A DNA stretch of 20,578 nucleotides from a virus. Both the position numbers and the translations under genes were made by a program. Shown piece by piece: positions 4,960-20,578 of the stretch. The DNA lies in the IMG/VR virus record IMGVR_UViG_3300040751_002363, positions 1-20,578 of that record; one strand, written 5' to 3'. The notes under the pieces are model-generated. The model searched no databases. It had not been told where the DNA came from and worked only from the letters and a program-made list of their open reading frames with translations. Each line of letters begins with the position of its first letter. The stretch's first letter is position 1.

Positions 4960-5147
4960 TACAAAGAGATCCGAATAGTAGAGCGATTATCAGCACCGAC
5001 CTTGAAGCTTTGAATAAATATAAAACGGAAAGGCTTTATTACAAGCGTGTTGATAGACTTCAGGATGATGTTTCTGAAATTAAATCGACTCTACTTAGGA
5101 TCTGCGAAAGAATAGACGCACTGGAAAAGAAGCATAAACATGGCTAA
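4956..5147 (+). CDS. Small coiled-coil-like protein of unknown function
   Basis: This 63-residue protein is highly charged and has no Trp or Pro-rich region. After an N-terminal stretch (MIQRDPNSRAIISTDLEALN) the rest reads as a single amphipathic helix with hydrophobic residues at heptad-like spacing (V, L, V, I, L, L, I, I, L) and ends in KKHKHG. That pattern fits a short coiled coil. It overlaps the upstream gene by four bases and the downstream fibre gene by eight, so it sits inside a translationally coupled structural operon. A similarly placed small gene is familiar from marine T4-like phages, but I know no function. It could be a trimerisation or assembly partner of the adjacent fibre, or a minor virion protein. 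That is inference from position only. Confidence 0.75.
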   Translation: MIQRDPNSRAIISTDLEALNKYKTERLYYKRVDRLQDDVSEIKSTLLRICERIDALEKKHKHG

Positions 5148-6540
5148 ACCTGGAATTACAAATTTACAAACGTCACAAACGTTTCAGAATTGGTTTGATA
5201 AAACCAACGATGTTATTGATATCCTGAAAACGGAAATTGTGACTGCAACCCCGGCTGGTGATACCACCACGGGTGACGCCATCCTTATTGGGGATTTTAC
5301 CGCAACCAATTTTGAGGCAACCGGCACCATATCATCAGATACTTTTGCGGCTGCAAATACTGCTGCAAATATTACATTTTCACAACCTGGTGAATTTAGC
5401 TCGGGCCAAAAGGTTACCGCTATTTTTGCATATGGAGCAAGTGGTGGTCAGGCAAGATTTACAAATAATGTTTTTAACTGGGACATCGGCCTAGATAATA
5501 ATACTGATGCTAATTTTGTTATTAAAACATCTACAACCACACCGTTTAAACTTTCTCCAAATGGTAAACTTACCTTAACTGATCTTGAGGTCACTGGCAA
5601 CACAACATTGGGTGCTAGTGGTTCTGTAGTAGATATTGCACATGGTGCATTTAAGGCTGGTGATAATATTGTTTTCACTGGACCAGATGCGAATAATCAA
5701 ATTGAAATATCTGCTGGACAGTCATATGACGGCACTGGTTTGGATATTGTGGTGCCTCGACAAGTTTCTCACCAAGGTGATGCAGATACAAGAATACGTT
5801 TTGATCACATGTCGGAGTCTGGTGCAAGAAACGGCCAGACAATTTTTGAAAATAATGGTCATGTAATGATGTATATCCACGGTGAGGAAAGATCTACAGA
5901 TCGCCGTGTTGATTTTATTCTAAAAGATGATCTGTCTGGCACACCTACAGTAGCTGGTGCTTCTTTTTACCAGGCAACAAATGGTTTAGGGACAGACAGT
6001 GGTAAAACATCCTTCAACGTAGAGGGTACTATTACTTCAGGTCTTAATACTACTGTCAATGAAGATGGCACTATTGGAAATAAATTACGGGTTCGGAATG
6101 GAGCCAATATTGAATTGGAAAACACCAGTGATAATGTTAAAATCACACTTGAAGGCAATACTGGTAACATTGATATTGACGGCACTTTTAATGCTAGTTC
6201 TGTAACGGCGACCGGCAATATACAGGCCGGTGGTGACCTTATAACACTTTCTGATAAACGTGTCAAGGAAAATATTAAGGATCTTTCGGATTCATTAGAT
6301 AAAGTTAATCAAATGAGAGGTGTCTCCTATAATAAAATTGGAGACACAGAGGAAAAAATTGGTTTTATTGCTCAAGAATTAGAAGCCATTTTACCTCAGG
6401 TGATTACAGAAGATAGCGATAAATATAAGAATGTTGCATATGGTAATATTGTTCCTGTGCTGGTCGAAGCGATAAAAGAGTTAAGTACTAAAATTGAAAA
6501 ATTAGAAAAAAATTCATGTAAGTGCGCTTGTGATAAATAA
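5140..6540 (+). CDS. Tail fibre-like protein with C-terminal S74 intramolecular chaperone
   Basis: This 466-residue virion protein starts with a short helical head (ITNLQTSQTFQNWFDKTNDV), typical of marine phage fibres, and continues as a Gly/Thr/Asn-rich beta shaft with repeated T-A-T-G or V-T-G-N turns (near residues 60-80, 148-160 and 355-368). The last 96 residues form a peptidase S74 domain: SDKRVKENIKDLSDSLDKVN, then IGFIAQELEAILPQVI. This domain is known to drive trimer folding and then cut itself off. Ser371 and Lys376 have the Ser-x4-Lys spacing of the known catalytic dyad, so cleavage is expected just before Ser371. The tail ends in a heptad-like helix and a Cys-rich tip. The start overlaps the 63-residue gene by eight bases, with a weak AGAAG at 5128-5132. 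Host-receptor binding or an accessory whisker role is inferred; the receptor is unknown. Confidence 0.85.
   Translation: MAKPGITNLQTSQTFQNWFDKTNDVIDILKTEIVTATPAGDTTTGDAILIGDFTATNFEATGTISSDTFAAANTAANITFSQPGEFSSGQKVTAIFAYGASGGQARFTNNVFNWDIGLDNNTDANFVIKTSTTTPFKLSPNGKLTLTDLEVTGNTTLGASGSVVDIAHGAFKAGDNIVFTGPDANNQIEISAGQSYDGTGLDIVVPRQVSHQGDADTRIRFDHMSESGARNGQTIFENNGHVMMYIHGEERSTDRRVDFILKDDLSGTPTVAGASFYQATNGLGTDSGKTSFNVEGTITSGLNTTVNEDGTIGNKLRVRNGANIELENTSDNVKITLEGNTGNIDIDGTFNASSVTATGNIQAGGDLITLSDKRVKENIKDLSDSLDKVNQMRGVSYNKIGDTEEKIGFIAQELEAILPQVITEDSDKYKNVAYGNIVPVLVEAIKELSTKIEKLEKNSCKCACDK
6250..6537 (+). other. S74 self-cleaving chaperone domain (residues 371-466 of the fibre)
   Basis: The TCT codon at 6250 encodes the predicted nucleophile Ser371, followed five residues later by Lys376. 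The core motif G-F-I-A-Q-E-L lies at residues 408-414. By family knowledge the domain assembles a trimer, cleaves at Leu370/Ser371 and is released or stays loosely bound. The end reads NSCKCACDK, with three Cys in alternating positions. Confidence 0.8.
6532..6539 (+). promoter_or_regulatory. Weak candidate T4-type late promoter overlapping the fibre stop codon
   Basis: GATAAATA matches the T4 late consensus TATAAATA at seven of eight positions. It overlaps the last codons of the fibre gene and lies 25 bases before a second such box. In AT-rich DNA such matches arise by chance, so this is only a candidate. Confidence 0.2.
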
Positions 6541-6586: not shown

Positions 6587-9500
6587 ATGTCAAAGATTTC
6601 AGAATTAGGTCCTATTACCGGTGCTAATACTAGAACTGAAGATCTTTTTGTTATTGTAAATCTAGTACAAGGTGATGACGGTACTAAAAACATCACCAGA
6701 AGAGAACTTGTAGAGGCTATTCAATACGAGCAATTTTCTCGTATCCGAATCACGGGTGGGACAATTGCTAATGTTGTAATGTCTAACTCTACCTTGAATA
6801 ATGTGACTATCAATACATCCGATTTTATTGCTGGTGACATTGATAGATCAGTTATTGCAAGATCAGACTTCAATGATGGTGACATCGCTAGATCCACATT
6901 TGATGACGGTCAGTTAACAGATTCAACTGGCGCCAATCTTCAGATCACAGATTCAGTATTCGATGCTGGTGAACTCACCAACTCATCGGGTAACAACCTC
7001 GACATCACAGCTTCGGTCCTTGACCAATCTAATGTAACATCGAGTTATATTACAGATTCAGTATTCGATGCTGGTGATGTAATTAATTCAAATGCAAATA
7101 ATATTTTAATTACTAGTTCTGATTTTAGTAACGGTACTGGTAATAATGATGTATTTACAAATTCTCGTATTGATGATTCATTCTTTAACAACCCTACCAT
7201 TGAAGGTGGTGTTGCGAACGGTACTATTCTTACAAACGTACAGATTGACGGATTAACACTTGAAGATGTAATTATTTCAAACAGTGAAATTGTTGATACA
7301 AATTTTGCAAATGGTGCAATTACCAACGCACAGATTGGTGAGTCAACATTTACTGCAGGTACTATTACAAATTCAAATGCAAATAACATTGTTATCACAA
7401 GCTCTGAATTTAATGACGGCACGGGTAATAATGTAACACTTACAAACTCAACCATCGATAATAGTTTAATTCAGAATTCTGTAATTGCTAATACAGATTT
7501 CCAAGGTGGTCTGAATGACGTAACAATTAATGATGCTGTAATTACAAGCTCCTCTGCATCGAATACAGGTATTACTGAATCAACTTTCCAAGGTCGGATT
7601 GAGGATTCAACAATTGCGAATTCAGTTATTGAAGATCTTGATCTTGATAATGTTGTAATAAGAAATTCAAAAATTCTTGATAGTGAAATCAAAGACTTTG
7701 ATATGGAACTCACCAAACAGTGGGAACCAAATATGGACGAAGACAGTTACTTCGCCATTAAAAATGTCAAAACTGATGAAACTGAAAAGATTTCATATAG
7801 ACAATTCTTTGACGAGATTGCTAGAAAAACAGAAAAAGCACTCAAGGTCCATGTTGCCATTGATGGTGATGATGACGCACCAGGTACCATTTTACAACCA
7901 GTTGGTACTTTGGAAAGAGCTGCGGAACTGGCACTTGAAAAAGCGGGGGGTTCATTTAACAGAAACGGTTTAAATGATGCAGTTCATATCTCGGTTGGGC
8001 CAGGTACCCACTATACAAAAGGTAATATTAAATTACCTGACGATTGTTCGATTACATCAACATCTGGTCAATACGCAACTGTTATCCAAGCATTACCTGG
8101 TTATGAATCTGAGAACTGTTTCCTACTAGGTTCTGGTTGTTATGCTCAAGGTTTCTCATTCTTCAACTGGAAAGTAGATAACTTTGATTACCCTGAAGGC
8201 GGATTTGCTTATGCATATCGCCCTGGTGCAAAAATCTTACGTTCACCATATGTGCGTGACTCATCTCAGCTTTCAAACTTTAATCGACTAGATGTCGAGC
8301 CACCATTGCAGCCATTTAACTCAAAAGGTACTGTTGCCGATCTAGGTCAAGAAGTTATCTTGGAGGTTGGCCATTCTGGTGAGTTTAATGAAGGCGATGA
8401 GGTTACATTCTCAAATGGCGCTTATGGATTCCTTTCATGGGATGATTCACTAGATACTGCCAAGGGCATAGATCCTGATCTTGCAACCAACAATAAAATC
8501 TTTGTTCGGAACTTAAAAGGCACAGTAGAAGTTGGTGATTATGTCTATGCGCAATCCGGTGGTACTGGTCAAGTCAATGCATTGGGTATTGATGATTTCC
8601 CTAACCCATTGGTTGGCCGCGGTGGCGGTGTAATTCTTGCGGATAGACGACAGCTAGATACTGACTCACTTTATACTTACTTCCTTGCATTTGGTGCTAC
8701 ACCTCGTACCCAAAACGGTATCGGTTACGTTGCACGTGATGGTGCTGGTGTAAACGGTATTGGTTCATTGTCAATCTTTGTTCGTGTAGCATTCTATGCT
8801 CTGAACGGTGGTCAAATGACACTGAACAACTCAGGTACTCAGTTTGGTGATATTTCAATGAGAGCAAAAGGTAGTACTACAATCTTTGCTCCACAAGATA
8901 CAACTGCAAATCTGGTTGGCAATACTGACTTTGCGGATTCGATTGAAAATAGAGCAACAGATATCATTGAGGATATGGTTGACTATCTCACGGCAAACAC
9001 TGCAAACGGTGGGTTAGGTCTACAGGAATATGATTCAGATAAATGTAAGCGTGACACGGGCATTATCATTGATAGTGTAGGTTATGATGTTGCATTAAAC
9101 ACAAACTACTGGGGTCGCTTAAACGGCCTTACATATCGTAGCCCAATTTCACAACGTGTATATGGTGAACAGTTAAATGAGACTGCAGGTTCAATTAGAC
9201 ATCTGAAAGATGAAGTTGACTACCTGTTTAGAAATTCAGATGTATCAGTTCTGGAAAGAGCAAATACTTCGTTCAATGCAACACTGGATATTCTTGAAAA
9301 CGGCGAAGACTATGCGGCTCCACTGGTATTTGAAGATACTGGTGTTGTTTCCAGAACCGCAGCACGTAAGCTTCTGATGAACAATACAGATCATATTACT
9401 GAAAAGTTTATTGATTGGATTGAAGATAACGATCAGTTCTATGCTTACGATAGCAACAAGTGTCGCAGAGATATTCAGGACTATATCTTACCTGCAGCAA

Positions 9501-12500
9501 AATATGATATGCTGTTGGACACAAACTACAATGCGGTAACTGCTGGCAATGCATACTATATGAATACTGCCAGAAAAGTTATTGGTGAACAAAGAAATGA
9601 AACGGTTTCTGCTTATCAAAGATTAAGAACTCAAACCGCGGATCTACTATCGGCCAACTCATCTGCTGGTGAAGTTGGTGCCTCGGATTCAATCAATGAG
9701 ATTGTTGACATTTTAAATAATGCTGGACGTAAATATACTCCAGTAGATGCAACTTATAATCCAGTCACTGGTTCCATGACAGTAACAATTGGTTTCCATG
9801 ACTTGACTGTAGGAACAAGAATAGTTATTGATCCAGGTAGCATGATCTTTACATGTGAGGATGATGATTTTGTAACAGAACTTGCACATCCAAGACCTAC
9901 TGATAAAGTTGCTTACCAACGACCATTGCCTATTACAGCAGTAACTGTGACTGGGTTTACAGTGTTCGTAGGTACTTCTACTAACTTTAGACATAAGTTT
10001 GAAAGATCAACCAAAAAATGTATCTCGGTTGTAGGTTCGGAAATTACTTATAGCAATGATGCTTCAATCCCAGCTGTAAATAGAAATGCCAGAAAACAAC
10101 TTCAGGCTAACAGAACCTATATACAGGATTATATGTTAAACTGGATTGATGATAACTATTTCCTATACGATAGTGATAAGTGTCGCCGTGACACAATTGA
10201 ATATATCTTACCTGCTGTAGAGCGTGATATGCTCCTCGGCACAAACTTCAACTCAATTCAATCTGGTGTTGCTTATTATACAGCAACTGCTAGTGAAGTT
10301 GTCGGAAGCCAATTAACACAGACTGCCGGAGCAATTAGACATCTTAAAGATCAAGTTGCAAATACGGTTTTAACTGACGCAGAATCTATTCAAAGAGTAA
10401 ATAATGCATTTAATGAAGTTGTCAGCATTATGGAAAATGCCGGCAGAGTATATACACCACTAGGTGCCGTATACGACCCAACAACTGGAGTCATGGAAGT
10501 TACTATTGGTACACATGATCTTCAGGTTGGTCAACAAATATTGATTGCCGATGAAAGCATGACATGGGAATGTGGCTCACCTGCGGTGCAAATTACACAT
10601 CCAAGACCGTCAGATCCAGCGTATAGAACACCACAAACAATTGTTGAGGTTACCAACACAACTATTACAATGAACGTTGGTGACGCGGGTGGATACACTG
10701 GTGCGCACACTCTGGTGAGTGCCGATGCTGATTCATTTAAATTGGCAACATATACAGGTTCCTATACTCCTATAACATCAACATATGATCCTGTAAATGG
10801 TGAAATGGTTGTTACAATTGGCCAACACAACCTTAAGCAAGGTGACTGGATTCAATTTAAACCTGGCAGCATTACATTCTCATGTCTTGATGCCAACTCA
10901 AACCCAGTAACAATTACACACCCAAGACCTACTGAGGGCCCATATCAGACTCCAGTAAGAATTCATGATGTGGATGGCTCAACAATTAAAGTATATGTTG
11001 GAAATGCTAATGGTTACACTGGTACTCACACATTTGTAAGTGCTGAAACAGGTGCTGTTAATGTTGATGCAATTTACTGGAGTGATCCTGCTAAGGTAAT
11101 TGAAACTCATACACCAACCAATGGTACATATGATCCAGTCACTGGTGTCACAACTCTTGAAATCGGAACACATGCTATTGAAACCGGTGATTTTGTTGAA
11201 ATTGCACCTTATGGCCTTACTTGGTCTTGTGGATCGCCAACAGAATATATTTCAAATCCACGGATAGGTGAGCCAAACTATGGTGTGCCTATTGAAATTA
11301 CCTCGACTACAGCTACTGGAATTACATTTAACTCTGGTGCCGCTGGTTACTCAGGTGCACATACATTTGAAAGTGCTTCTGCTGGTAGTGTTATACACAC
11401 CCAAGCGACAAAAGGCGGTGTACTTACAGGAAGACAATTGTTGGCAAATAAACAGCTCATCAAAGATGAAGTTGTTGGGTATTTAAACAATAATTATTTC
11501 ACATATGACGGCGCAAAATGCTCACGTGATACGGCGCTTATTCTTGATGCAGTCAAAAGAGATGTACTGACAGGGTCTAATTTCAGCTCAGTGTTTGCTG
11601 GACTGGCTTACCGTGCTGGAACATCAAGCGGTGATCTTGTAATAACTGACCAACTTACAGAAACAGTTGGTGCTATTACCTGGTTAAAAGGTGAAATTGG
11701 TGCCAATCTTACTGGTACTGCACTCACAAGATCAAATACTGCATTTGATGAAATCATTGACATTATGAATGCTGGTCAAGGTAATGCCGACGCAATTACA
11801 TTTGGAACACCTACCGTAAGTACTGGTCACACAAATGCTAGAATTGCATTGCAAACCAATAAGGCATTCCTTCAAGCAGAGGCAACAGCCTGGCTTGCGG
11901 CCAATTACCCTGCCTTCTCATATGATGTTGCCAAATGTGAAAGAGATGTAGGATATCTTGTTGACTCAATTTCATTCGACATTCAACACGGTTCAAATAC
12001 TGCGGCTGTAAATAATGCAAGACTTTACTTTGACAATGCAGTAAGTGTATTACCGGAAGCACAAAAGATAATTACAGCTGAAGTGTTTGAAAGAATTGCT
12101 GCACTTGCTGGAAGAATTGTCAGAGGTCAACCAGTTGTAAAAACAAATACCAACCCAGAGAATGCTGATGTGACTGTTCCAGGAGGATTTACTCCAACTG
12201 GCGGAACATATGATCCAGTTACTGGAATTATGGAAGTCACCATTGGTGCTCATAACTTTGTGGCTGGTGATAGAGTTACCTTTGGTTTGGAAAGTATTAC
12301 TTGGGAATGTGGTTCACCTGCTCAACAGATTTCGCATCCAAGAGCAACCGATCCAATTTATGACCAGGCAGTTCCAATTAGATCTGTTACCTCAACATCT
12401 ATCACACTTGATGTCGGTGATGCAAATGGTTACACTGGTGCTCATACATTTATCTCGGCAACTACTGATGCAATTAAGGATTCTGCTCTGAGTATTTCTC

Positions 12501-15500
12501 AACGGACACAGGATCTATTTGCCATTGTATCTGACATGATCCGTGGTGATGAATTTGCAGATCTTCCTGCATATGAGGAACCAACTGTTACTGCTGCTGT
12601 TGCTGAACAGGAAGCATATGAATATATTAATGGTGTTAGAGAAAAATATGGGTTTGAAATTCTGAACTTTATTTCAGAAACATATAACGGACTATCATAT
12701 AATCAAGAAAAATGCTCACGTGATGTGGGTTATATTGTTGATGCCATTGCTCAAGATATGGAATACGGTGGTAATGAAGCTACAATTACTGCAGTTAAAG
12801 AATACTTTGAGGCAGCACTTGAACTGAGTGAAGCTTATCCAGAAAAGCAGACAAGACCTGCTTCTACATTGGATACAAACAGTAACGAAACAAATTATAT
12901 TGATTATATCAAGTCTATCAATACACTGCCTAAGGATCAACGTGAGCCTACAAAACAAGCTTACCTCCATATGGCAGATGTTATTTCTGATATTGCTCAA
13001 GAAATTGCTGTCACCCCATCATATACTCAATACACTCCAACAGGCGCCACTTATGATCCTGCAACAGGTGTATTTACTGCAACCATCGGATCACACTCAC
13101 TTAGAGTTGGTGAAACGGTTTATCTTAAGGACGAAGGCTTTACATTCGAATGTGATGCAGGAAGTGGCCCACAGCAATCAACTGCACCTCAAGCTCACCA
13201 TCCTTTCTGGAGAAAAGCGGTTACAATTACTGGTGTAACAGGAACCTCCATTACAATGAATGTAGGGACTGGTGGTACAGGGCAATATGCACACACATTT
13301 ATCTCTGCTGTTGCTAATGCAATCAGTGAAGGTCCATATCAAAATGTAGATGGAATTGCCGCTGATGCAACAACCGCACAGGCAGCCAAGGATTTGGTAC
13401 TCATTATTGCTAATGCAATTGATGAATATAAAGAACCTTCCGATCTTCCTGCAATCTCTGGTGCTCCAACATATGAGCCGAAGAGAACATTTGCTAGAAA
13501 CATTATTCAGAGAAATAAACCTTTCCTACAAGAAGAAATAGTTTCATATATCAACGATGTATTCTTTACCTTCGAGGAAGGCAAATGTGCCAGAGATGCT
13601 GGTTACATTGTAGATGCTATTGCTAGAGATATTCTTACTGGTAGTAATTATAATTCTGTTTATGCAGGTCGGGCATATCGTATTGGTACTTTAGGTGCTG
13701 ATAAGGTTATTGACGATCAATTATCAGAAACAATCGAAGGCTTTAAGTTTGTTCAAAGAAAGATTGAGGACGGGATTACTGGTAACGCACTAGATAGATC
13801 AAAAGCTTCATTCACTGCTCTATTTGATGTCCTTACTGACGGTGTTGATGCTGCTCCTGCATATGTCTTTGGATCTGCAAACGCAAGTACATCGAACCTT
13901 AATGCTGCTCAAGGCTTAATTGCAAACAGAACATTCATGCAGGCTGAGGTACTTGCCTGGCTTGGAATTAACTTTGCAGGATTGACATATGACCAAAATA
14001 AATGTTACCGTGATGTAGGTTATATGGTGGATGCTGTAACATATGATATCAGACATAATACCAATACAGGTATCCGTGATGTTGCTAGACTGTATTTTGA
14101 AAATGCAGTAAGTGTTCTTCCAGATGATCAAAAAGCTCCAACTGCGGCTGCCTTTGTACGGCTTGCTGAAGTGGCAGAACAATTGGTACTTAAACAACCA
14201 GTAACCAAAAGTGCAGGTAATGCTGAAACTCAAGATACAGTTTCATTCGGTGCAACCACTGCGGCCGTTGGTGATAATGTACAGGCTCTGTTTGAAATTG
14301 TTTCGGATGTGATTACAGCGGATAGCTTGAGAGAATTACCAGCGGTAACAAATATTGATGCTGCAGGTGTAAATGCTACAGGCTACGATTTGGAATTCCA
14401 AAATGCATATAACACAATCAATAATGATCTTAAGTCTAAAATTCAAGCTGACATTGTTCCATTCCTAAATGAAAAATATAACTTCCTAGAGTATGATGAA
14501 GATAAATGTCGGAGAGACACTGGTTACATTGTTGATGCTATCTCACACGATATTCAATATGGTGGTAATGCGGCAATTCATGGCTGTGCTGAAATTTACT
14601 TTAAAAATGCAGTTAATGTTTTGGATAGAGATCAAAGAGAACCTACAAGAAGAGCATTTGCTCATCTCGGTGAGGTAATTGAAAAACTGATTAAACGTGA
14701 AACAGTTACTCCATCTGGTAAAAATACATTGGTTCCTGATCTTATGGGTCTGCCTGGTGCAAACCCTGCAAAACCTGAGATTGCAACCGAAGCTAGAGAT
14801 TTGGCTTGGATTATTTCCTCAATCGCTGATGATGAAGATCCATCTAATATCCCACAAAGAATTGATCCTATTATTACTTGGGTTGATGATCACTTTGTTG
14901 CTTCAAAAGATCTTATTGAGGACAATACAGTCACTCTTGTAGAAAATATGATTTCATATATCTCAACTGAATACAATGGCTTGAGTTTCCCAAGAGATAA
15001 ATGTCGCAGAGATATGGGTTATCTTGTTGATGCGGTTTCACATGATATTAACTATCAGACAAACCATGCTTCAAGAATATCTGCTCAAATTTACTTTGAA
15101 AACGGAATTAGTGTTTTACCTGTTGATACAAGAATACAAACAGCAGATGTTTATCTTGAAATGGGTAATCTTATGTCTGATATTGTTCTTGAGGCTAATA
15201 CTGGCGCAGGCCAAGACTTTACTTATGAACCATCAGATGGTGCTACTGCACTTGAAGTTAAAAATCTTATCGGAATAGTTGAGGACGTAATTAGAGCAGA
15301 CAGTACTGCGGTAATTCCTGAACTTGTTGAACCTGATCTTTCATGGGTCGAGGCAAGTAAAATATGGGCAGCAGACGCTATTGACAATAATAAAGATATG
15401 TTGGCTGATGATGTTCAAGAATGGCTCAGAGAAGAGTTTACGGTTCTTGATTATAATAAAGCTAAGTGTCGCAGAGATGTTCAACAGTACATCATCCCTG

Positions 15501-16735
15501 CATTCAGCTTTGACCTTAACTATGGCGGTAATGCAGCTACAAGATGGAATGCAGATTTCTACTACTGGAATAACATTTTAAGACTTCCTGAGAATCAAAG
15601 AATTCCAACTGCAAAAGCATATCGTCAGCTTGGTGAAATTTGTGAAGCCATTGTTTTAGGTAAAGACCCAGAAGCGGTGGTGGTTGAAGAAGTTGCAAGT
15701 TCAGTCGAAGGAACTAAGGTCAAATATCTTGCTAATATCTTGTATGAAACACTCCTAAATAATGATACTAAGAGATTACCGGCACTTGATTTACCTGATT
15801 TTGATTATGCAGCCGATGGTGTTCATAAGTTCTCAAGAGACATTTTGGTTGCAAAGAGAAGAGTATTGCAGTCAGAGATTGTAAGATTTGTAAATTCAGA
15901 ATATAATTTCATAGATATAAATCTAACAAGACGTGATTCTCTAAACTTGTTATATACTATTGCTAATGATTTCAGATTCATTAATACAGCAATTACTAGT
16001 GCACCAGGCTATGGTGGAATTGAAGGTAAAGGTTCGTCTAAAGCTACAAGAACATTTGTTGCTTCATTCTTTAATTATGACGGTACTCATGTATTCCCTG
16101 TATTTAATCCAACAACGAGAGGATTGAACTTTAAGGGCACCACTACTGATATAAATAATGTTGATACTAATGAAACTAAGAGGAATGATGCTTACATAGT
16201 ACCAACAGATAACAACACAAACAGATATTCAGGAACAGTATATTATTGGAACGGAACAATCTGGGTTAATGATGGTGCTAACAATGATCAACTCTTATAT
16301 GCATTTTATAAATCATGGGAAAAAATGAGAGATTATATTACAACTAATTTGAATGGGGGAGCGGACGAAAACACAATGATTAATGGCCTGTTTAATGATA
16401 TTATACTTGGAAATGTTTTAAGACCTAACACATTGCAATTCGGTTCGTTGGTTGAATCTATTGCCCACCAGTTTAACGGTGCATCCGCTGGTGTAAATAG
16501 AACGGCATTGCCTCTAAACTTTAGAAACATTGGTCTTCCGATTTCGGCCTTGGCTTCTGTTCTCTCTGAAGATGGTGGTAGAGTTCGTTGGTCAGGTGCT
16601 GACGAATTGAACAACCAATACTTCGCTAGAGGATTGAGGATTAATGGTAGAACAGGGCGAATTGAAGGTAGGCCGTTTACATCATCAGTAAGAAAACTCG
16701 CAAGAAGAGCATCCAACAGTAGGGCGATCGTATAA
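6587..16735 (+). CDS. Giant modular virion protein: beta-helix, K-C-x-R-D helical modules and beta cassettes
   Basis: This 3382-residue protein starts with a short adaptor-like head (residues 1-48). Residues about 50-375 are Asn/Ser/Asp-rich pentapeptide-like repeats, probably a right-handed beta-helix. Residues about 400-785 look like a second, pectin-lyase-type helix (VGPGTHYTKG, SGCYAQGFSFFNW, GVGRGGG-like turn, NGIGSLSIFVRVAFYALNGG). From residue 820 to 2961 eleven helical modules carry K-C-x-R-D, and a twelfth (Thr3114) has lost the Cys. Six beta cassettes of about 100 residues interrupt them. The C-terminus has ALPLNFRNIGLPI and GGRVRWSGADELNNQYFARG, a tail I know from large structural proteins of marine T4-like phages. 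It ends in a basic stretch (RKLARRASNSRAIV). The stop overlaps the next start (TAATG). It is probably a long tail or baseplate-attached fibre. No enzyme active site was recognised. Confidence 0.85.
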   Translation: MSKISELGPITGANTRTEDLFVIVNLVQGDDGTKNITRRELVEAIQYEQFSRIRITGGTIANVVMSNSTLNNVTINTSDFIAGDIDRSVIARSDFNDGDIARSTFDDGQLTDSTGANLQITDSVFDAGELTNSSGNNLDITASVLDQSNVTSSYITDSVFDAGDVINSNANNILITSSDFSNGTGNNDVFTNSRIDDSFFNNPTIEGGVANGTILTNVQIDGLTLEDVIISNSEIVDTNFANGAITNAQIGESTFTAGTITNSNANNIVITSSEFNDGTGNNVTLTNSTIDNSLIQNSVIANTDFQGGLNDVTINDAVITSSSASNTGITESTFQGRIEDSTIANSVIEDLDLDNVVIRNSKILDSEIKDFDMELTKQWEPNMDEDSYFAIKNVKTDETEKISYRQFFDEIARKTEKALKVHVAIDGDDDAPGTILQPVGTLERAAELALEKAGGSFNRNGLNDAVHISVGPGTHYTKGNIKLPDDCSITSTSGQYATVIQALPGYESENCFLLGSGCYAQGFSFFNWKVDNFDYPEGGFAYAYRPGAKILRSPYVRDSSQLSNFNRLDVEPPLQPFNSKGTVADLGQEVILEVGHSGEFNEGDEVTFSNGAYGFLSWDDSLDTAKGIDPDLATNNKIFVRNLKGTVEVGDYVYAQSGGTGQVNALGIDDFPNPLVGRGGGVILADRRQLDTDSLYTYFLAFGATPRTQNGIGYVARDGAGVNGIGSLSIFVRVAFYALNGGQMTLNNSGTQFGDISMRAKGSTTIFAPQDTTANLVGNTDFADSIENRATDIIEDMVDYLTANTANGGLGLQEYDSDKCKRDTGIIIDSVGYDVALNTNYWGRLNGLTYRSPISQRVYGEQLNETAGSIRHLKDEVDYLFRNSDVSVLERANTSFNATLDILENGEDYAAPLVFEDTGVVSRTAARKLLMNNTDHITEKFIDWIEDNDQFYAYDSNKCRRDIQDYILPAAKYDMLLDTNYNAVTAGNAYYMNTARKVIGEQRNETVSAYQRLRTQTADLLSANSSAGEVGASDSINEIVDILNNAGRKYTPVDATYNPVTGSMTVTIGFHDLTVGTRIVIDPGSMIFTCEDDDFVTELAHPRPTDKVAYQRPLPITAVTVTGFTVFVGTSTNFRHKFERSTKKCISVVGSEITYSNDASIPAVNRNARKQLQANRTYIQDYMLNWIDDNYFLYDSDKCRRDTIEYILPAVERDMLLGTNFNSIQSGVAYYTATASEVVGSQLTQTAGAIRHLKDQVANTVLTDAESIQRVNNAFNEVVSIMENAGRVYTPLGAVYDPTTGVMEVTIGTHDLQVGQQILIADESMTWECGSPAVQITHPRPSDPAYRTPQTIVEVTNTTITMNVGDAGGYTGAHTLVSADADSFKLATYTGSYTPITSTYDPVNGEMVVTIGQHNLKQGDWIQFKPGSITFSCLDANSNPVTITHPRPTEGPYQTPVRIHDVDGSTIKVYVGNANGYTGTHTFVSAETGAVNVDAIYWSDPAKVIETHTPTNGTYDPVTGVTTLEIGTHAIETGDFVEIAPYGLTWSCGSPTEYISNPRIGEPNYGVPIEITSTTATGITFNSGAAGYSGAHTFESASAGSVIHTQATKGGVLTGRQLLANKQLIKDEVVGYLNNNYFTYDGAKCSRDTALILDAVKRDVLTGSNFSSVFAGLAYRAGTSSGDLVITDQLTETVGAITWLKGEIGANLTGTALTRSNTAFDEIIDIMNAGQGNADAITFGTPTVSTGHTNARIALQTNKAFLQAEATAWLAANYPAFSYDVAKCERDVGYLVDSISFDIQHGSNTAAVNNARLYFDNAVSVLPEAQKIITAEVFERIAALAGRIVRGQPVVKTNTNPENADVTVPGGFTPTGGTYDPVTGIMEVTIGAHNFVAGDRVTFGLESITWECGSPAQQISHPRATDPIYDQAVPIRSVTSTSITLDVGDANGYTGAHTFISATTDAIKDSALSISQRTQDLFAIVSDMIRGDEFADLPAYEEPTVTAAVAEQEAYEYINGVREKYGFEILNFISETYNGLSYNQEKCSRDVGYIVDAIAQDMEYGGNEATITAVKEYFEAALELSEAYPEKQTRPASTLDTNSNETNYIDYIKSINTLPKDQREPTKQAYLHMADVISDIAQEIAVTPSYTQYTPTGATYDPATGVFTATIGSHSLRVGETVYLKDEGFTFECDAGSGPQQSTAPQAHHPFWRKAVTITGVTGTSITMNVGTGGTGQYAHTFISAVANAISEGPYQNVDGIAADATTAQAAKDLVLIIANAIDEYKEPSDLPAISGAPTYEPKRTFARNIIQRNKPFLQEEIVSYINDVFFTFEEGKCARDAGYIVDAIARDILTGSNYNSVYAGRAYRIGTLGADKVIDDQLSETIEGFKFVQRKIEDGITGNALDRSKASFTALFDVLTDGVDAAPAYVFGSANASTSNLNAAQGLIANRTFMQAEVLAWLGINFAGLTYDQNKCYRDVGYMVDAVTYDIRHNTNTGIRDVARLYFENAVSVLPDDQKAPTAAAFVRLAEVAEQLVLKQPVTKSAGNAETQDTVSFGATTAAVGDNVQALFEIVSDVITADSLRELPAVTNIDAAGVNATGYDLEFQNAYNTINNDLKSKIQADIVPFLNEKYNFLEYDEDKCRRDTGYIVDAISHDIQYGGNAAIHGCAEIYFKNAVNVLDRDQREPTRRAFAHLGEVIEKLIKRETVTPSGKNTLVPDLMGLPGANPAKPEIATEARDLAWIISSIADDEDPSNIPQRIDPIITWVDDHFVASKDLIEDNTVTLVENMISYISTEYNGLSFPRDKCRRDMGYLVDAVSHDINYQTNHASRISAQIYFENGISVLPVDTRIQTADVYLEMGNLMSDIVLEANTGAGQDFTYEPSDGATALEVKNLIGIVEDVIRADSTAVIPELVEPDLSWVEASKIWAADAIDNNKDMLADDVQEWLREEFTVLDYNKAKCRRDVQQYIIPAFSFDLNYGGNAATRWNADFYYWNNILRLPENQRIPTAKAYRQLGEICEAIVLGKDPEAVVVEEVASSVEGTKVKYLANILYETLLNNDTKRLPALDLPDFDYAADGVHKFSRDILVAKRRVLQSEIVRFVNSEYNFIDINLTRRDSLNLLYTIANDFRFINTAITSAPGYGGIEGKGSSKATRTFVASFFNYDGTHVFPVFNPTTRGLNFKGTTTDINNVDTNETKRNDAYIVPTDNNTNRYSGTVYYWNGTIWVNDGANNDQLLYAFYKSWEKMRDYITTNLNGGADENTMINGLFNDIILGNVLRPNTLQFGSLVESIAHQFNGASAGVNRTALPLNFRNIGLPISALASVLSEDGGRVRWSGADELNNQYFARGLRINGRTGRIEGRPFTSSVRKLARRASNSRAIV
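6947..6972 (+). repeat. 26-base exact direct repeat, copy 1
   Basis: The stretch coding for (I)TDSVFDAG(D/E) is identical over 26 bases with copy 2 at 7052-7077. The offset of 105 bases keeps frame (35 codons). It suggests recent duplication or gene conversion inside the beta-helix region. Confidence 0.85.
7052..7077 (+). repeat. 26-base exact direct repeat, copy 2
   Basis: Second copy of the 26-base repeat at 6947-6972, in the same reading frame. Confidence 0.85.
9734..10033 (+). repeat. Beta cassette 1 (residues 1050-1149 of the giant protein)
   Basis: It starts with YTPVDATYNPVTGSMTVTIG and contains a Cys (I-F-T-C-E) and the motif HPRPTD. It is the most diverged copy: the closing G-Y-T-G-A-H-T-F motif of the others is replaced by NFRHKFERSTKKC. 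It follows the helix end ILNNAGRK. Confidence 0.7.
10451..10762 (+). repeat. Beta cassette 2 (residues 1289-1392)
   Basis: A canonical copy: YDPTTGVMEVTIGTHDLQVG, then W-E-C-G-S-P, HPRPSDPAY and GGYTGAHTLVSA. It follows the helix end IMENAGRV. The three cassettes 2, 3 and 4 lie in direct tandem. Confidence 0.75.
10763..11107 (+). repeat. Beta cassette 3 (residues 1393-1507)
   Basis: It has YDPVNGEMVVTIGQHNLKQG, F-S-C-L, HPRPTEGPY and NGYTGTHTFVSA. A short extra linker (AVNVDAIYWSDPAKVIE) at the end makes it longer than its neighbours. Confidence 0.75.
11108..11404 (+). repeat. Beta cassette 4 (residues 1508-1606)
   Basis: It has YDPVTGVTTLEIGTHAIETG, W-S-C-G-S-P and AGYSGAHTFESA. The usual HPRPTD is changed to NPRIGE, losing the His. 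Confidence 0.75.
11417..12178 (+). repeat. Two-module unit, copy 1 (K-C-x-R-D modules 4 and 5)
   Basis: A type A module followed by a type B module, with Cys1645 and Cys1784. It aligns with 13484-14245 at a constant offset of 689 residues (2067 bases), judged by eye from the translations. Shared landmarks are GSN(F/Y)(S/N)SV, R-L-Y-F-(D/E)-N-A-V-S-V-L-P and QPV(V/T)K. Confidence 0.7.
12188..12481 (+). repeat. Beta cassette 5 (residues 1868-1965)
   Basis: It has YDPVTGIMEVTIGAHNFVAG, W-E-C-G-S-P, HPRATDPIY and NGYTGAHTFISA. It is very close to cassette 2, although a K-C-x-R-D module pair separates them. Confidence 0.75.
13031..13330 (+). repeat. Beta cassette 6 (residues 2149-2248)
   Basis: It has YDPATGVFTATIGSHSLRVG, F-E-C-D and a closing G-Q-Y-A-H-T-F-I-S-A. 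The central motif has drifted to HHPFWRKA, with a longer Gln/Ser/Pro loop before it. Confidence 0.7.
13484..14245 (+). repeat. Two-module unit, copy 2 (K-C-x-R-D modules 7 and 8)
   Basis: Second copy, with Cys2334 and Cys2473, again 139 residues apart. The protein similarity is clear but the DNA has drifted, so the duplication is not recent. Confidence 0.7.
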
Positions 16736-17157
16736 TGACTATTACAACTATTACAACAACACAGGCACCGGACGCCAAACCGGTATATGTGAACAAAACG
16801 TTGACCACAAACTGGCAAATACTTATCGATGTTCCTAACTACGAGGTTCCAGAACTTGTGTTTGGTGGATCTACGACTGTCGAGCCTGGAGTTGGTGAAG
16901 TTATCTCACCACTCATTCTCTGCAACACAACTGCAAATACTGCATATGTTGATCTTAAGGCATATAGATATGTCGAAAACGATTCATGGTACATTTTAAG
17001 AAATTTACCAGTTCCTTCATATGATACAATTCCTATTCCTATCAACGGACAATTCTTTAAATCCGGTGATACATTGGAGATAAAAGCAGATAAAAACCTA
17101 CACGTAGATTGTACTCTATCATTCACCCTTGGCCAATCGGAAGAGGATGATGTCTGA
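16735..17157 (+). CDS. Small beta-rich virion protein of unknown function
   Basis: This 140-residue protein opens with a Thr/Ile-rich stretch (MTITTITTTQAPDAKPVYVN) and then reads as alternating beta strands with Gly/Pro turns. Two Cys are present (L-I-L-C-N near residue 62 and V-D-C-T near residue 127), and the end is acidic (QSEEDDV). The middle (YVENDSWYILRNLPVPSY) and the end (G-D-T-L-E-I-K-A-D-K-N-L-H-V) resemble small beta-sandwich proteins found beside fibre genes in marine T4-like phages. A minor virion or fibre-tip role is inferred. The start shares one base with the stop of the giant gene, and its stop shares one base with the start of the collagen-like gene. A weak AGGG at 16721-16724 serves as its ribosome binding site. 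Confidence 0.75.
   Translation: MTITTITTTQAPDAKPVYVNKTLTTNWQILIDVPNYEVPELVFGGSTTVEPGVGEVISPLILCNTTANTAYVDLKAYRYVENDSWYILRNLPVPSYDTIPIPINGQFFKSGDTLEIKADKNLHVDCTLSFTLGQSEEDDV
17142..17147 (+). promoter_or_regulatory. Ribosome binding site for the collagen-like fibre
   Basis: AGAGGA lies nine bases before the ATG at 17157, inside the end of the 140-residue gene. ATG triplets at 17147 and 17150 are in another frame, so 17157 is the supported start. Confidence 0.55.
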
Positions 17158-20100
17158 TGGCAAGCAGATTTAAGTCACTACGAGGAAGATCACAAACGCT
17201 TGGGCATGGAATACCCCAGGCGTTTCCTATCAATTTAGATCCGGTACCCTTTGAAGGTGCTATCGTTTATGCAGAAAATGGAGATTTAAAATACTCCAAC
17301 GGAACTGCATGGGTGGATCTTGGGGCAGGGCCGCAAGGTACCACAGGTATACAAGGTAATGACGGCAACCAAGGTGTTCAGGGCGATTATGGCCCTGGTT
17401 TTACTATTATAGGGTCTGTTCCTGATGTTGATGCTGGTGGTGATCCACAAGCGACTTTAAATACTGCTTTCCCATCTGCTAATCTTGGCGAAGGTGTTAT
17501 TGACCAAGCAGATGATGAACTTTGGATTTATGACGGAAGTACTTGGGTTAACATTGGTAGCTTTAGAGGTGTTCAAGGTTTCCAAGGTGTACAAGGTGTT
17601 CAAGGCAATCAAGGTACAATTGGTGAAGAAGGTATCCAAGGCTCACGAGGTTATCGTGGTAACCAAGGTGTGCAAGGTCTCCAGGGAGTACAAGGCAACC
17701 AAGGTGTCAGAGGTAACCAAGGTGTGCAAGGTATCCAAGGTGTTCAATCAACACAGGGTATTCAAGGTTCATTAGGTTTTCAAGGTGTCCAAGGAGTTCA
17801 GGGAGTACAAGGTGTCCAAGGTGATACTGGTATTCAAGGCTATGATGGCACTCAAGGAATTCAAGGAGTCGTCGGTCAATACGGTGGCGTAAGCTTAAGA
17901 TATACATATAATCAGACAGATATTACAAATACAGACCCAGGCGCTGGAATCATTAAAGGTAGCGACGGTGTATTTGGCGATTCAACACAACTCTATATTG
18001 ATGTTGAAGATGCAGATGGTGTTAACGTACACGGACTGCTACAAGAATTTTACGAGTCATCCAATCCAAATAGTAAAGGCTATTTAAAGATTGCTGATGC
18101 AACAAACGTATATAATTATTTTGTATACGAAATAGTAAGTGGTTCTCTTACAGGTACTTCCTCAGCAGGTTATCACGTACTTAATGTTACAACAAACATC
18201 GGCGCAGCCGCATCACTTGCCAATGGTACTGACGTACGAATTTCGTTTATCAGAACTGGCGACCAAGGTATTCAAGGTGTCCAAGGTGATACTGGTATTC
18301 AAGGTTTCGATGGTATTCAAGGACCACAAGGTGTTCAAGGTGTTCAAGGCAATACTGGTATTCAGGGCTTTGATGGTTTCCAAGGTATCCAGGGACATAC
18401 AGGTTATAACGGTGGTCTAACATTTACTTGGATTTGGAATTCTTCAACTAGTGAAGGTTTCCCAGGATTAAATAGTTGGTTACTTAACAATACTAATGTT
18501 ACAACAGCTGATAAACTCTACATTGATGATCTTACAGAAACTGGTAGAAGAGTCGATGGTCTATTTGATTATCTTGATTCAATTGCTGGTAATCCTGCAA
18601 AAGGTCAAATTTTTGTAAGAACATTAAAAGATCAATCTACTGATGATTACGAATTTGTAATCTATAACATTCTTGACTGGACATGGAGTCCAACCGGAAC
18701 TGGTAAGGACTGGGGTCATTTTGATGTTCAATGGGTTGCAAGTTCGCTATTAGGTGGAACAGACGCTTCTCCAGGAACTAACTGGAACACTGGTGCTGCT
18801 AATGTATATGGTAATAGCACTATTATTAACTTTATCCCTGCTGGTACATTAGGTCCGCAAGGGGTTCAAGGTGATACAGGTGTCCAAGGTTTCACTGGTA
18901 ACCAGGGTGTCCAAGGCTTTCAAGGTTCTCAGGGTACTCAGGGTTTCCAAGGTAACCGAGGCATCCAAGGTGTTCAAGGTATCCAGGGTGATACTGGTGT
19001 CCAGGGTGTTCAAGGTATCCAAGGTACACAAGGCCTTAGAGGCTATACTGGCGCCTACGGTGGGATGACCTTTGAATATAACTTCCTATCTGATACTGCG
19101 GTTTCAGATCCATTAGCTGGTAATCTTAAATTTGATAATGCAGTACTTGCCACTGCGGCAAATATGCGGATATCAGATGAGGATGCAACCGGAAATGATT
19201 TGGATGCATTTTTAAGAACCATTGATGATTCCACAAGTGGAGTCAAAGGTTACTTTAAAGTTATTTCGGTAGTAGATCCTTCAATCTTTGTGATTTACCA
19301 AATTGATAGCTTGTCAGAAGTACCAACATATTTTACTGTTGGATGTACATTTATTGCTGGTAACGGAACATCGGCATACTTTACAACCAATCCTGAAGTA
19401 GTAGTTACATTTACAAGAACTGGTGACCAAGGAACACAAGGCGTACAAGGCGTACAGGCAACACAAGGCATACAAGGTACTCAGGGATTCCAGGGTGCTC
19501 AAGGACCTCAATCTGTACAAGGTATACAGGGTGCTCAAGGTGATCTTGGTTTCCAAGGTTTACAAGGTGTTCAAGGTGTCCAATCAGCACAGGGTGTTCA
19601 AGGTAATACTGGTGTGCAGGGTAACCAAGGGGTCCAAGGTGACTTTGGCCCACAAGGTTTCCAAGGAACACAAGGAACACAAGGCTTCCAGGGGTTCCAA
19701 GGTCTTGAAGGCAACAGAACATATCAGGTTGTTAATGATGGAAGTTCTGCATGGGAAATTGATGGTGTAACCAACAATCCAACATTACGGCTTTTAAGAG
19801 GCTTTACATATGTCTTTAATGTAAATGCTTCGGGCCACCCATTCTACATTAAAACAGATCCAGGTACAGGTACAGGTGACCAGTACAACAATGGTGTTAC
19901 CAATAACGGTGCGCAGGTAGGACAAATATTCTTTAAAGTTCCTGGTGACGCACCTGACACATTATATTATCAATGTCAGTTCCATGGCACAATGGTTGGC
20001 CAAATGGATATTTCTGATCTTGGTCCTCAAGGTGTTCAGGGTGTTCAGGGTGTTCAAGGTGACTTAGGTCCTCAAGGACCTTCAGGTAGCTTTGGTGGTG

Positions 20101-20578
20101 TATCATTTGACTATACATTCTCTTCAAGTACTGCTGTAGGCGATCCGGGTGTTGGTAAATTAAGATTTAATAACTCTACATGGTCCTCAGCTTCATTGTT
20201 GGTAATGAACGAAAGAGATGATAACTTTACCTCTATTGAATCTTATCTTAGAACAATTGATGATTCTACCTCTACTATTAAAGGTCACTGGAAACTAACT
20301 GAAGGTGCAAACCCACAAAACTTTGCACTTGGTACAATTTCCGCTTCAACTGAGGTTGGTTCATACCACGTAATTGATATTACATATTTAAGTGGCTCAA
20401 TCACATCACTACCAGATGGAACAGATGTAAGAATTACATTTGCTAGAACTGGTGATATTGGTGACCGAGGTGTTCAAGGCCCACAAGGTACACAATCAGT
20501 ACAGGGTTTACAAGGACCTCCTGGTGAAGGTACTCAAGGTATCCAAGGCCCGCAAGGTATTCAAGGCGGCGGTGGTGT
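17157..20578 (+). CDS. Collagen-like modular fibre protein with globular inserts, 3'-truncated by the window edge
   Basis: Read by hand from ATG 17157, this frame has no stop to base 20578: 1140 complete codons plus two bases. The head (residues 1-57) ends in a W-V-D-L-G motif typical of phage fibre adaptors. A second such motif (LWIYDGSTWVNIG) lies near residues 122-134. Seven Gly-x-y blocks follow, with Gln dominating the third position (GVQ, GIQ, GFQ). Between them sit beta-rich inserts of about 120-150 residues. Inserts 1, 3 and 5 share (Y/F)GG(V/M) at the start and RTGD at the end, insert 2 is diverged, and insert 4 is cupredoxin-like. Such Gly-x-y segments form triple-helical stalks in phage fibres, so a trimer is expected. 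Only two Cys occur (730 and 940). The C-terminal tip, probably the receptor-binding part, lies outside the window. Confidence 0.85.
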   Translation, partial: MASRFKSLRGRSQTLGHGIPQAFPINLDPVPFEGAIVYAENGDLKYSNGTAWVDLGAGPQGTTGIQGNDGNQGVQGDYGPGFTIIGSVPDVDAGGDPQATLNTAFPSANLGEGVIDQADDELWIYDGSTWVNIGSFRGVQGFQGVQGVQGNQGTIGEEGIQGSRGYRGNQGVQGLQGVQGNQGVRGNQGVQGIQGVQSTQGIQGSLGFQGVQGVQGVQGVQGDTGIQGYDGTQGIQGVVGQYGGVSLRYTYNQTDITNTDPGAGIIKGSDGVFGDSTQLYIDVEDADGVNVHGLLQEFYESSNPNSKGYLKIADATNVYNYFVYEIVSGSLTGTSSAGYHVLNVTTNIGAAASLANGTDVRISFIRTGDQGIQGVQGDTGIQGFDGIQGPQGVQGVQGNTGIQGFDGFQGIQGHTGYNGGLTFTWIWNSSTSEGFPGLNSWLLNNTNVTTADKLYIDDLTETGRRVDGLFDYLDSIAGNPAKGQIFVRTLKDQSTDDYEFVIYNILDWTWSPTGTGKDWGHFDVQWVASSLLGGTDASPGTNWNTGAANVYGNSTIINFIPAGTLGPQGVQGDTGVQGFTGNQGVQGFQGSQGTQGFQGNRGIQGVQGIQGDTGVQGVQGIQGTQGLRGYTGAYGGMTFEYNFLSDTAVSDPLAGNLKFDNAVLATAANMRISDEDATGNDLDAFLRTIDDSTSGVKGYFKVISVVDPSIFVIYQIDSLSEVPTYFTVGCTFIAGNGTSAYFTTNPEVVVTFTRTGDQGTQGVQGVQATQGIQGTQGFQGAQGPQSVQGIQGAQGDLGFQGLQGVQGVQSAQGVQGNTGVQGNQGVQGDFGPQGFQGTQGTQGFQGFQGLEGNRTYQVVNDGSSAWEIDGVTNNPTLRLLRGFTYVFNVNASGHPFYIKTDPGTGTGDQYNNGVTNNGAQVGQIFFKVPGDAPDTLYYQCQFHGTMVGQMDISDLGPQGVQGVQGVQGDLGPQGPSGSFGGVSFDYTFSSSTAVGDPGVGKLRFNNSTWSSASLLVMNERDDNFTSIESYLRTIDDSTSTIKGHWKLTEGANPQNFALGTISASTEVGSYHVIDITYLSGSITSLPDGTDVRITFARTGDIGDRGVQGPQGTQSVQGLQGPPGEGTQGIQGPQGIQGGGG
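17328..17399 (+). repeat. Collagen-like block 1
   Basis: Eight Gly-x-y triplets (GPQGTTGIQ and on), residues 58-81, ending where the insert FTIIGSVPDVDAGG begins. Confidence 0.8.
17565..17879 (+). repeat. Collagen-like block 2
   Basis: The longest block with about 35 triplets (residues 137-241), mostly GVQ, GIQ, GNQ and GFQ. It holds one Gly-to-Ser break at codon 17748 and an exact 21-base DNA repeat at 17658-17678 and 17712-17732. Confidence 0.85.
17880..18257 (+). other. Globular insert 1 of the collagen-like fibre
   Basis: About 126 residues, opening YGGVSLRYTYN and closing GTDVRISFIRTG. Beta-rich, no Cys. It is homologous by eye to inserts 3 and 5. Function unknown; a side lobe of the trimeric stalk is likely. 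Confidence 0.65.
18258..18404 (+). repeat. Collagen-like block 3
   Basis: About 49 residues of unbroken Gly-x-y triplets (GDQGIQGVQGDTGIQGFDG and on), ending before YNGGLTF. Confidence 0.85.
18405..18851 (+). other. Globular insert 2 of the collagen-like fibre
   Basis: About 149 residues, Trp-rich (WIW, W-T-W-S, DWGHFDVQW, N-W-N). It shares the N-G-G-L-T-F opening and the D-L-T-E-T-G-R-R-V-D-G-L-F-D-Y-L region with the other inserts, but lacks the closing RTGD. It is a diverged or extended member. Confidence 0.6.
18852..19055 (+). repeat. Collagen-like block 4
   Basis: About 68 residues of Gly-x-y with no break (GPQGVQGDTGVQGFTG and on), ending before YGGMTFEYN. Confidence 0.85.
19056..19421 (+). 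other. Globular insert 3 of the collagen-like fibre
   Basis: About 122 residues, opening YGGMTFEYNF and closing VVVTFTRTG, with an inner RTIDDSTSGVKGYF that matches RTIDDSTSTIKGHW in insert 5. It has one Cys (residue 730). Confidence 0.7.
19422..19712 (+). repeat. Collagen-like block 5
   Basis: About 97 residues. Glycine is replaced by Ala at codon 19458 and by Ser at 19512 and 19584, each time directly after Gln. Confidence 0.85.
19716..20018 (+). other. Cupredoxin-like domain inside the collagen-like fibre
   Basis: About 100 residues between collagen blocks 5 and 6. The order of motifs is that of a small blue-copper fold: TLRLLRGFTYVFNV, then SGHPFYI, then FFKVPGDAPDTLYYQC and QFHGTMVGQM. 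His894 lies 46 residues before Cys940, and Cys940, His943 and Met946 follow the Cys-x2-His-x2-Met spacing seen in amicyanin. All four type 1 copper ligands are therefore present at plausible places. Similar domains occur, to my knowledge, in marine phage fibres; copper binding in a virion is inference. A simple structural beta-sandwich is the alternative. Confidence 0.7.
20022..20090 (+). repeat. Collagen-like block 6
   Basis: A short block of 23 residues (GPQGVQGVQGVQ and on), with three GVQ triplets in a row, ending before F-G-G-V-S-F. Confidence 0.8.
20091..20450 (+). other. Globular insert 5 of the collagen-like fibre
   Basis: About 120 residues, opening FGGVSFDYTF and closing GTDVRITFARTG. 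It is the closest relative of inserts 1 and 3, and has no Cys. Confidence 0.7.
20451..20578 (+). repeat. Collagen-like block 7, cut by the window edge
   Basis: At least 42 residues of Gly-x-y continue to the last base, with a Gly-to-Ser break at codon 20496 and a more proline-rich stretch (GPPGEG) near the end. Confidence 0.8.

Follow-up and report, generated by a model that had tools for sequence, protein, structure and literature searches.

The window, by which we mean the whole stretch of DNA analysed here, is an entire IMG/VR virus record of 20,578 bases and holds a long tail fibre open reading frame (ORF) whose 3′ end is cut because the window is the whole record. This ORF matches PF01391 at 6.3e-52 over 10 stretches in a Pfam scan and also matches PHROG tail fibre families, and its Gxy repeats together with the tail-fibre family matches place the ORF at 17157-20576 in the class of collagen-like phage tail fibres. 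Between two of its collagen-like stretches lies a globular domain with four candidate copper ligands:

17157..20576, + strand: collagen-like tail fibre ORF, Gxy stretches alternating with globular regions; 1140 amino acids (aa) in the window, 3′ open
19593..19718, + strand: collagen-like stretch directly before the predicted cupredoxin domain; aa 813-854
19716..20018, + strand: predicted cupredoxin-fold domain between two collagen-like stretches; aa 854-954
19836..19838, + strand: His894, first equatorial copper ligand by homology, in a GHPF motif; aligned with the copper His of plastocyanin 6yez, two residues off against 2plt and 2vmj
19974..19976, + strand: Cys940, thiolate ligand by homology; alignments with copper proteins
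19983..19985, + strand: His943, second His ligand by homology; alignments with copper proteins
19992..19994, + strand: Met946, axial ligand by homology; alignments with copper proteins
20022..20102, + strand: collagen-like stretch directly after the predicted cupredoxin domain; aa 956-982

A domain identical to that of the window occurs in a 54-kb record (locus L003), within a fibre that forms an open frame of ~2,020 aa, contains one C-x2-H-x2-M motif and has 2 Cys, one of them the Cys ligand; the C terminus of that fibre is S74-chaperone-like by eye. Upstream of the fibre, the window encodes on the same strand a tail-fibre-like protein carrying an S74 chaperone domain at its C terminus (5140-6540; PF13884, 1.4e-16), a 3,382-aa ORF (6587-16735) with a pentapeptide-repeat region (PF13599) close to its start, many repeated YDPxTGxMxVTIGxHxL modules recognized by eye and matches to virion structural and tail fibre PHROGs, and, between this giant ORF and the fibre, a 140-aa protein (16735-17157) with no match at 1e-5 in 50,697 phage records.

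The window virus is probably a T4-like myovirus, judging from the matches of its first ORF to Sinorhizobium and Pelagibacter phage proteins. Over its full length and at 32% identity this ORF matches VrlC, virion structural or hypothetical proteins of Sinorhizobium phages phiM12, phiN3, phiM7 and phiM19, and it aligns over 66% with a protein of Pelagibacter phage Mosig, all five phages being ones that we take to be T4-like; 1,499 phage records match the ORF somewhere. Among four domain-bearing records searched for the Gp23 major capsid protein, three large ones (domain 58-69% identical) encode it and the 54-kb record of L003 does not.

Predicted fold and ligand set

Structure prediction confirmed aa 854-954 as a cupredoxin-fold domain with a His-Cys-His-Met type 1 copper ligand set. 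The AlphaFold2 model, computed with 18 aligned relatives, reached a pLDDT of 95.7 and a pTM of 0.87. In the numbering of the 101-aa domain, it places the first His between strands 31-37 and 43-46, the Cys as the last residue of strand 82-87, and the second His and the Met in the loop before strand 94-100; the ligands of plastocyanin occupy equivalent strand and loop positions. By title, 48 of the 50 PDB matches listed by Foldseek are cupredoxin-fold copper proteins, and the other two (3cvd and 3cvb), whose titles carry no molecule name, are presumably plastocyanin. The first VIA-align row is the rusticyanin mutant 2cal (Z 11.0, rmsd 2.0, 20% identity), close to tied with nitrite reductase and small laccases at Z 9.5 to 10.5, and the superposition of the model on known cupredoxins over 91 of its 101 residues places it in the cupredoxin fold superfamily.

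The earlier note had proposed, from the letters of the sequence, a complete type 1 copper ligand set in a cupredoxin-like domain. Both parts of that proposal hold: H894, C940, H943 and M946 are where it had put them, the fold is confidently predicted and matched by Foldseek and VIA-align to copper proteins, and the model sets the four residues in the strand-end and loop positions typical of blue copper ligands. The 46 residues that it had counted from the first His to the Cys are right as a difference in position, with 45 residues lying between the two. Its amicyanin spacing is correct for the Cys-x2-His-x2-Met loop and does not extend to the family model, as the window domain has no match to the NCBIfam amicyanin profile.

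In sequence, too, the residues follow the order expected of a type 1 site, with the His...Cys-His-Met series aligned with known ligands. All four coincide with the ligands of plastocyanin 6yez; the printed profile alignments with 2plt and nitrite reductase 2vmj match the Cys, the second His and the Met but shift the first His by two residues. The exact C-x2-H-x2-M motif occurs once in the 1140 aa of the fibre ORF, where ~8e-5 would be expected by chance from its composition (2 Cys, 9 His and 6 Met). A profile of 34 relatives (alignment A4, comprising 34 of 48 representatives) was compared with PDB sequences, and since all 34 members have intact ligands this profile favours intact sites. The first 29 of its 54 matches are copper proteins, including nitrite reductase (E value 6.6e-4), plastocyanin (0.009), an azurin (0.01), amicyanin (0.06) and rusticyanin (0.12), and the first non-copper match, a penicillin acylase, appears at 0.31.

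Curated family models capture the domain less readily. The window domain lies below every Pfam and NCBIfam cut-off and matches no NCBIfam family up to E 1, the amicyanin model included. Three assignments were rejected: PF25489 (At5g54830-like), for which the domain scores 20.8 bits against a curated cut-off of 27; amicyanin, for want of a match to the curated NCBIfam model; and plastocyanin, as the Cys-x2-His-x4-Met loop is absent and PF00127 is not matched. Among the 34 relatives, at E up to 0.1, PF25489 touches 15, PF00127 (Copper-bind) matches 11 (best 0.0024) and TIGR02657 (the NCBIfam amicyanin model) matches 8 (best 5.5e-4), with the non-copper family DUF4352 beating Copper-bind in 3 of the 34 (best 8.5e-6). 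To judge from these profile comparisons, the domain family is poorly covered by Pfam. It also carries a signature of its own: Pro follows the first His in 34 of 34 sequences of A4 and in 98% of the pooled set described below, and this invariant His-Pro separates the family from plastocyanin, which has His-Asn in the 6yez alignment. A His-Pro after the ligand is known from multicopper oxidases.

Spread among phages and cells

The earlier note had placed similar domains in marine phage fibres. With an E limit of 1e-3, 348 of 50,697 phage records match the domain, a tail fibre protein of cyanophage P-SSM2 included, and 338 of these 348 records are named Synechococcus, Prochlorococcus or ‘Cyanophage’. 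Pattern scans, using patterns that contained ligands, recovered relatives in 38 viral loci, and two Autographiviridae phages of Prochlorococcus carry the domain as well. Structural matches of the model in BFVD include the proximal tail fibres of P-SSM2 and S-SCSM1. The collagen-like context recurs, with such repeats present in 72 of 144 distinct viral ORFs and lying within 25 aa of the domain in 67.

The second common setting is a baseplate protein. When 60 records were taken at even steps down the ranking (E up to 0.01), the matching protein was named a baseplate wedge tail fibre (protein) connector in 44, and in 6 of 15 named phages fetched the match lies inside a connector-annotated protein. 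The domain ends no more than 2 residues from the C terminus of the connectors of ACG-2014d, P-SSM4, S-SSM5, Syn19 and S-WAM1 and is followed by 52 residues in that of MC09; in P-SSM4 the connector gene directly follows gp7. All 15 named phages have an intact primary copy, and each of the six connector-annotated copies keeps the four ligands. We rejected the window fibre itself as a gp9 connector, for its match to PHROG 677 spans only positions 302-410 of the 412 in the profile, that is, the C-terminal domain alone. The proteomics passages of PMC3037559 covered here do not name gp9.

Two observations concern neighbouring genes. The gene after gp9 (loci L229-L232; T4-GC 399 in P-SSM4, S-SSM5 and Syn19) encodes a large protein with additional cupredoxin-like copies, of which some have C-x2-H-x2-M and others lack the Cys. 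In P-SSM2 (locus L148), a piuC gene at 20143-20736 is located within the group of fibre genes and near the fibre that bears the cupredoxin.

Outside phages, a scan whose pattern included the first His found relatives at 28 loci, in bacteria and in one record titled Euryarchaeota, and the best domain has intact ligands in 27 of the 28 cellular loci recovered with this pattern. By eye, many of the bacterial relatives start with an export signal or lipoprotein box, which would put them where copper is accessible. Among four bacterial relatives that were scanned, CHRD is the fusion partner in one and Lipoprotein_15 in another. Their occurrence is patchy: counting the centre genome, the domain is present in 12 of 149 genomes of the family around that of locus L126 (Pseudozobellia) and in 3 of 142 genomes of the class around that of L123 (OCS116). 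In BFVD the model also matches ‘beta-sandwich’ proteins of Pithovirus and Marseillevirus, as well as a ‘Blue type 1 copper protein’ of Fadolivirus, and modules of this kind may therefore extend to the giant viruses of eukaryotes.

Ligand retention and joint loss

Ligand retention was assessed in a ligand-blind sample (A3), for which the bait, a 40-residue stretch taken from between the first His and the Cys, had no ligand in its pattern. The best 80 of 105 confirmed loci gave 56 distinct copies, and since these loci were ranked by likeness to the segment of the window, the sample leans to window-like copies. Within these best 80 of 105 loci, 47 of the 56 distinct copies retain HCHM, one has lost the Met alone, two have lost three ligands, and six, all from one clade, have lost both His while keeping Cys and Met.

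A larger pooled set combines this with the first scans, whose patterns held the ligands, or the first His, so that the early conservation counts and the pooled count of 167 intact HCHM sets among 182 distinct full copies are inflated; the 15 broken copies fall into 8 lineages. The 182 derive from 308 domain matches, from which 32 partial ones were left out to give 276, reduced to 183 distinct copies and then by one contained sequence. Halves of split outer copies in 11 loci account for 22 of the 32 partials; others without ligands are L030 (all four lost), L027 and third copies without Cys in P-SSM4, S-SSM5 and Syn19, alongside a chance-like match in L221 and ligand-keeping pieces of L138 and P-SSM4. 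Counting the broken partials would lower the retained fraction.

Losses in the pooled set are coupled. An equatorial ligand (His, Cys or His) is missing from 14 copies in 7 lineages, and two or three are missing together in 13 of these 14 copies and 6 of the 7 lineages, the sole single equatorial loss being a bacterial copy without Cys (L139). Random placement of losses on clades gave, over 20,000 trials, a mean of 25.8 single and 2.3 multiple losers, and no trial was as extreme as the data; this null used a midpoint-rooted FastTree tree, took the loss sizes from the same data and placed ligand losses independently, and the test is rough, its sole control for general relaxation being 12 other conserved columns. 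In an independent-pairs tree test, which offered very few pairs (1 to 3 well-supported ones each), none of six tests was mainly opposite. Copies that have lost ligands keep 8-12 of the 12 other conserved columns (intact mean, 11.2), with DSRM copies (8-9 of 12) and YCYY (9 of 12) the most decayed, which indicates mostly loss of the site and not decay of the domain. Joint loss is as a shared metal site predicts, and these alignments suggest such a site.

Copies with broken sets also bear on the fold. For a copy from the DCQM clade, which has neither His, the prediction is again a cupredoxin (pLDDT 80.3), with rusticyanins as the first Foldseek matches, in a model for which 5 of the 12 alignment rows were intact relatives. 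On this prediction the metal would not be essential to the fold, and it would be dispensable there and perhaps to the protein as well. The module would then stand without the full site in some lineages, with metal binding an added function that most keep under selection.

The earlier note had reasoned that a predicted fold with the four residues far apart, or free variation of the Cys and His among homologues, would count against a site, and also that a purely structural domain need not keep all four. Within the reach of the model and the alignments, neither of the first two conditions spoke against the site, the ligands being kept, or lost, together; the last argument is qualified by the existence of broken-set copies, one of them still predicted to be a cupredoxin. 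These same data frame the best-surviving alternative, a metal-free structural or adhesive cupredoxin in which packing and hydrogen bonds would account for the retention of the four residues. The persistence of broken-ligand copies in viral proteins speaks for it, as does the predicted fold of the His-less copy, bearing in mind the intact relatives in its alignment; joint equatorial loss with the other columns mostly kept fits a shared metal better than independent packing, however, and Cys is otherwise rare in the L003 fibre. We consider this alternative possible but unlikely.

Further irregular copies were seen among the viral loci. At ~aa 160-370 of L161-L166, L168, L171, L173, L176 and L185, an outer cupredoxin-like copy is split into halves lying far apart (about 5-39 and 56-87 of the profile), and in L162 a copy without both His sits between the split halves, a domain nested in a domain. 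The L030 ORF starting at 4506 has, at aa 166-318, a copy without all four ligands and with a ~55-aa insert that by eye resembles a small carbohydrate-binding module.

Possible roles and known counterparts

Our preferred reading, to which we assign a probability of roughly 55%, is that the fibre bead is a true cupredoxin with a type 1 copper site that stabilizes the fibre and is filled after lysis. The cupredoxin would be a globular bead inserted in the collagen-like tail fibre; collagen-like phage fibres are usually trimers, and a trimeric fibre would carry three copies of the domain. The His-Cys-His-Met set would form a type 1 (blue) copper site, probably filled, already folded, in the lysate or in seawater. 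Filling after lysis is the simplest order, given that fibre synthesis takes place in the cytosol and that little free copper is available there. Plastocyanin keeps the geometry of its site in the apo form, and 2pcy, which we take to be apo-plastocyanin, is in the Foldseek list. Once bound, the metal would tie the two ends of the sandwich together, stiffening and stabilizing a bead that is flanked by triple-helical segments or, in many cyanophages, terminates gp9. Within this reading we infer the metal, its identity, the time of loading and the stabilizing role. Against it stand the broken-set lineages, the offset of the first His, the His-Pro, assembly in a copper-poor cytosol and the weak family matches.

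A site for another metal, zinc or Cu(I) in a non-blue form, with a structural role, would accommodate the replacement of His-Asn by His-Pro, which changes the outer sphere, and the one clade that has Cys and Met without both His. The order of the ligands and the length of the loop nevertheless match blue copper sites, and copper proteins head the PDB profile search with the first 29 of 54 matches, so that we regard a different metal as distinctly unlikely.

We give still less credence to a redox-active role, in which a copper centre of the virion would sense copper or redox state, or swap electrons with a host surface protein, and thereby tune attachment or ejection. Nearly all known proteins with a type 1 site use it for electron transfer, and it would suit such a role that many cyanophages have the domain on their annotated fibre-baseplate connector and that it is shared with bacterial proteins that look exported by eye; its occurrence not only in fibres and gp9 but also in other large proteins, structural or unnamed, argues instead for a generic module, broken-ligand copies persist, and we know of no partner for the putative centre. 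A chance motif or misassigned frame is ruled out for practical purposes by the composition estimate, the open frame, the 348 phage records and 38 viral loci with relatives, the predicted fold and the covariation of the ligands.

Fold and site are known, and what appears undescribed, as far as the open-access literature searched here goes, is their widespread use as a bead of phage fibres and gp9. Among the open-access papers listed there was no description of a cupredoxin in a phage fibre or baseplate, and we know of no copper centre described as part of a phage virion. If copper is bound, a large class of ocean viruses would carry an extracellular metal cofactor, in a medium whose copper is both scarce and tightly bound, and the domain would provide a visible (blue or yellow) handle on a part of the virion. 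It also offers a direct test of why phages keep the site, with the coupled ligand losses as natural controls in which the site is broken. A broader proposal, that many marine T4-like virions are copper proteins whose blue copper centres on fibres and gp9 fill from the surroundings after lysis and work as a switch set by copper or redox state, altering fibre stiffness or release and thus attachment to the next host, is speculative and in our estimate of low probability.

Among characterized proteins, rusticyanin, the first VIA-align row, shares the cupredoxin fold and has the His-Cys-His-Met set with a longer ligand loop (Cys-x4-His-x4-Met); it is a soluble electron carrier and, at 153 aa, ~50 residues longer than the window domain. 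Amicyanin has the same Cys-x2-His-x2-Met loop as the window domain, but His-Asn follows its first ligand where the window family has His-Pro, and it is not part of a fibre. Plastocyanin (PF00127, TIGR02656) has the four ligands in the same order and a near-equal length (chains of 98-105 aa), and differs in its loop, which is Cys-x2-His-x4-Met in the 6yez alignment against Cys-x2-His-x2-Met here. Exported proteins of Flavobacteria and others contain domains 37-62% identical to that of the window and are cellular, not parts of a virion. Closest in setting are the phage proteins: the C-terminal ~100 aa of Kyanoviridae gp9 (PHROG 677) correspond to the domain of the window (6.5e-27, profile 307-409 of 412), while the rest of gp9 is unmatched by the window protein, a collagen-like fibre. 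In cyanophage P-SSM2, PSSM2_028 has a domain 58% identical to that of the window followed, by eye, by Gxy residues, and the best BFVD match is Q58M57, a ‘Putative T4-like proximal tail fiber’; both proteins are annotated only as fibres, with the domain unmentioned.
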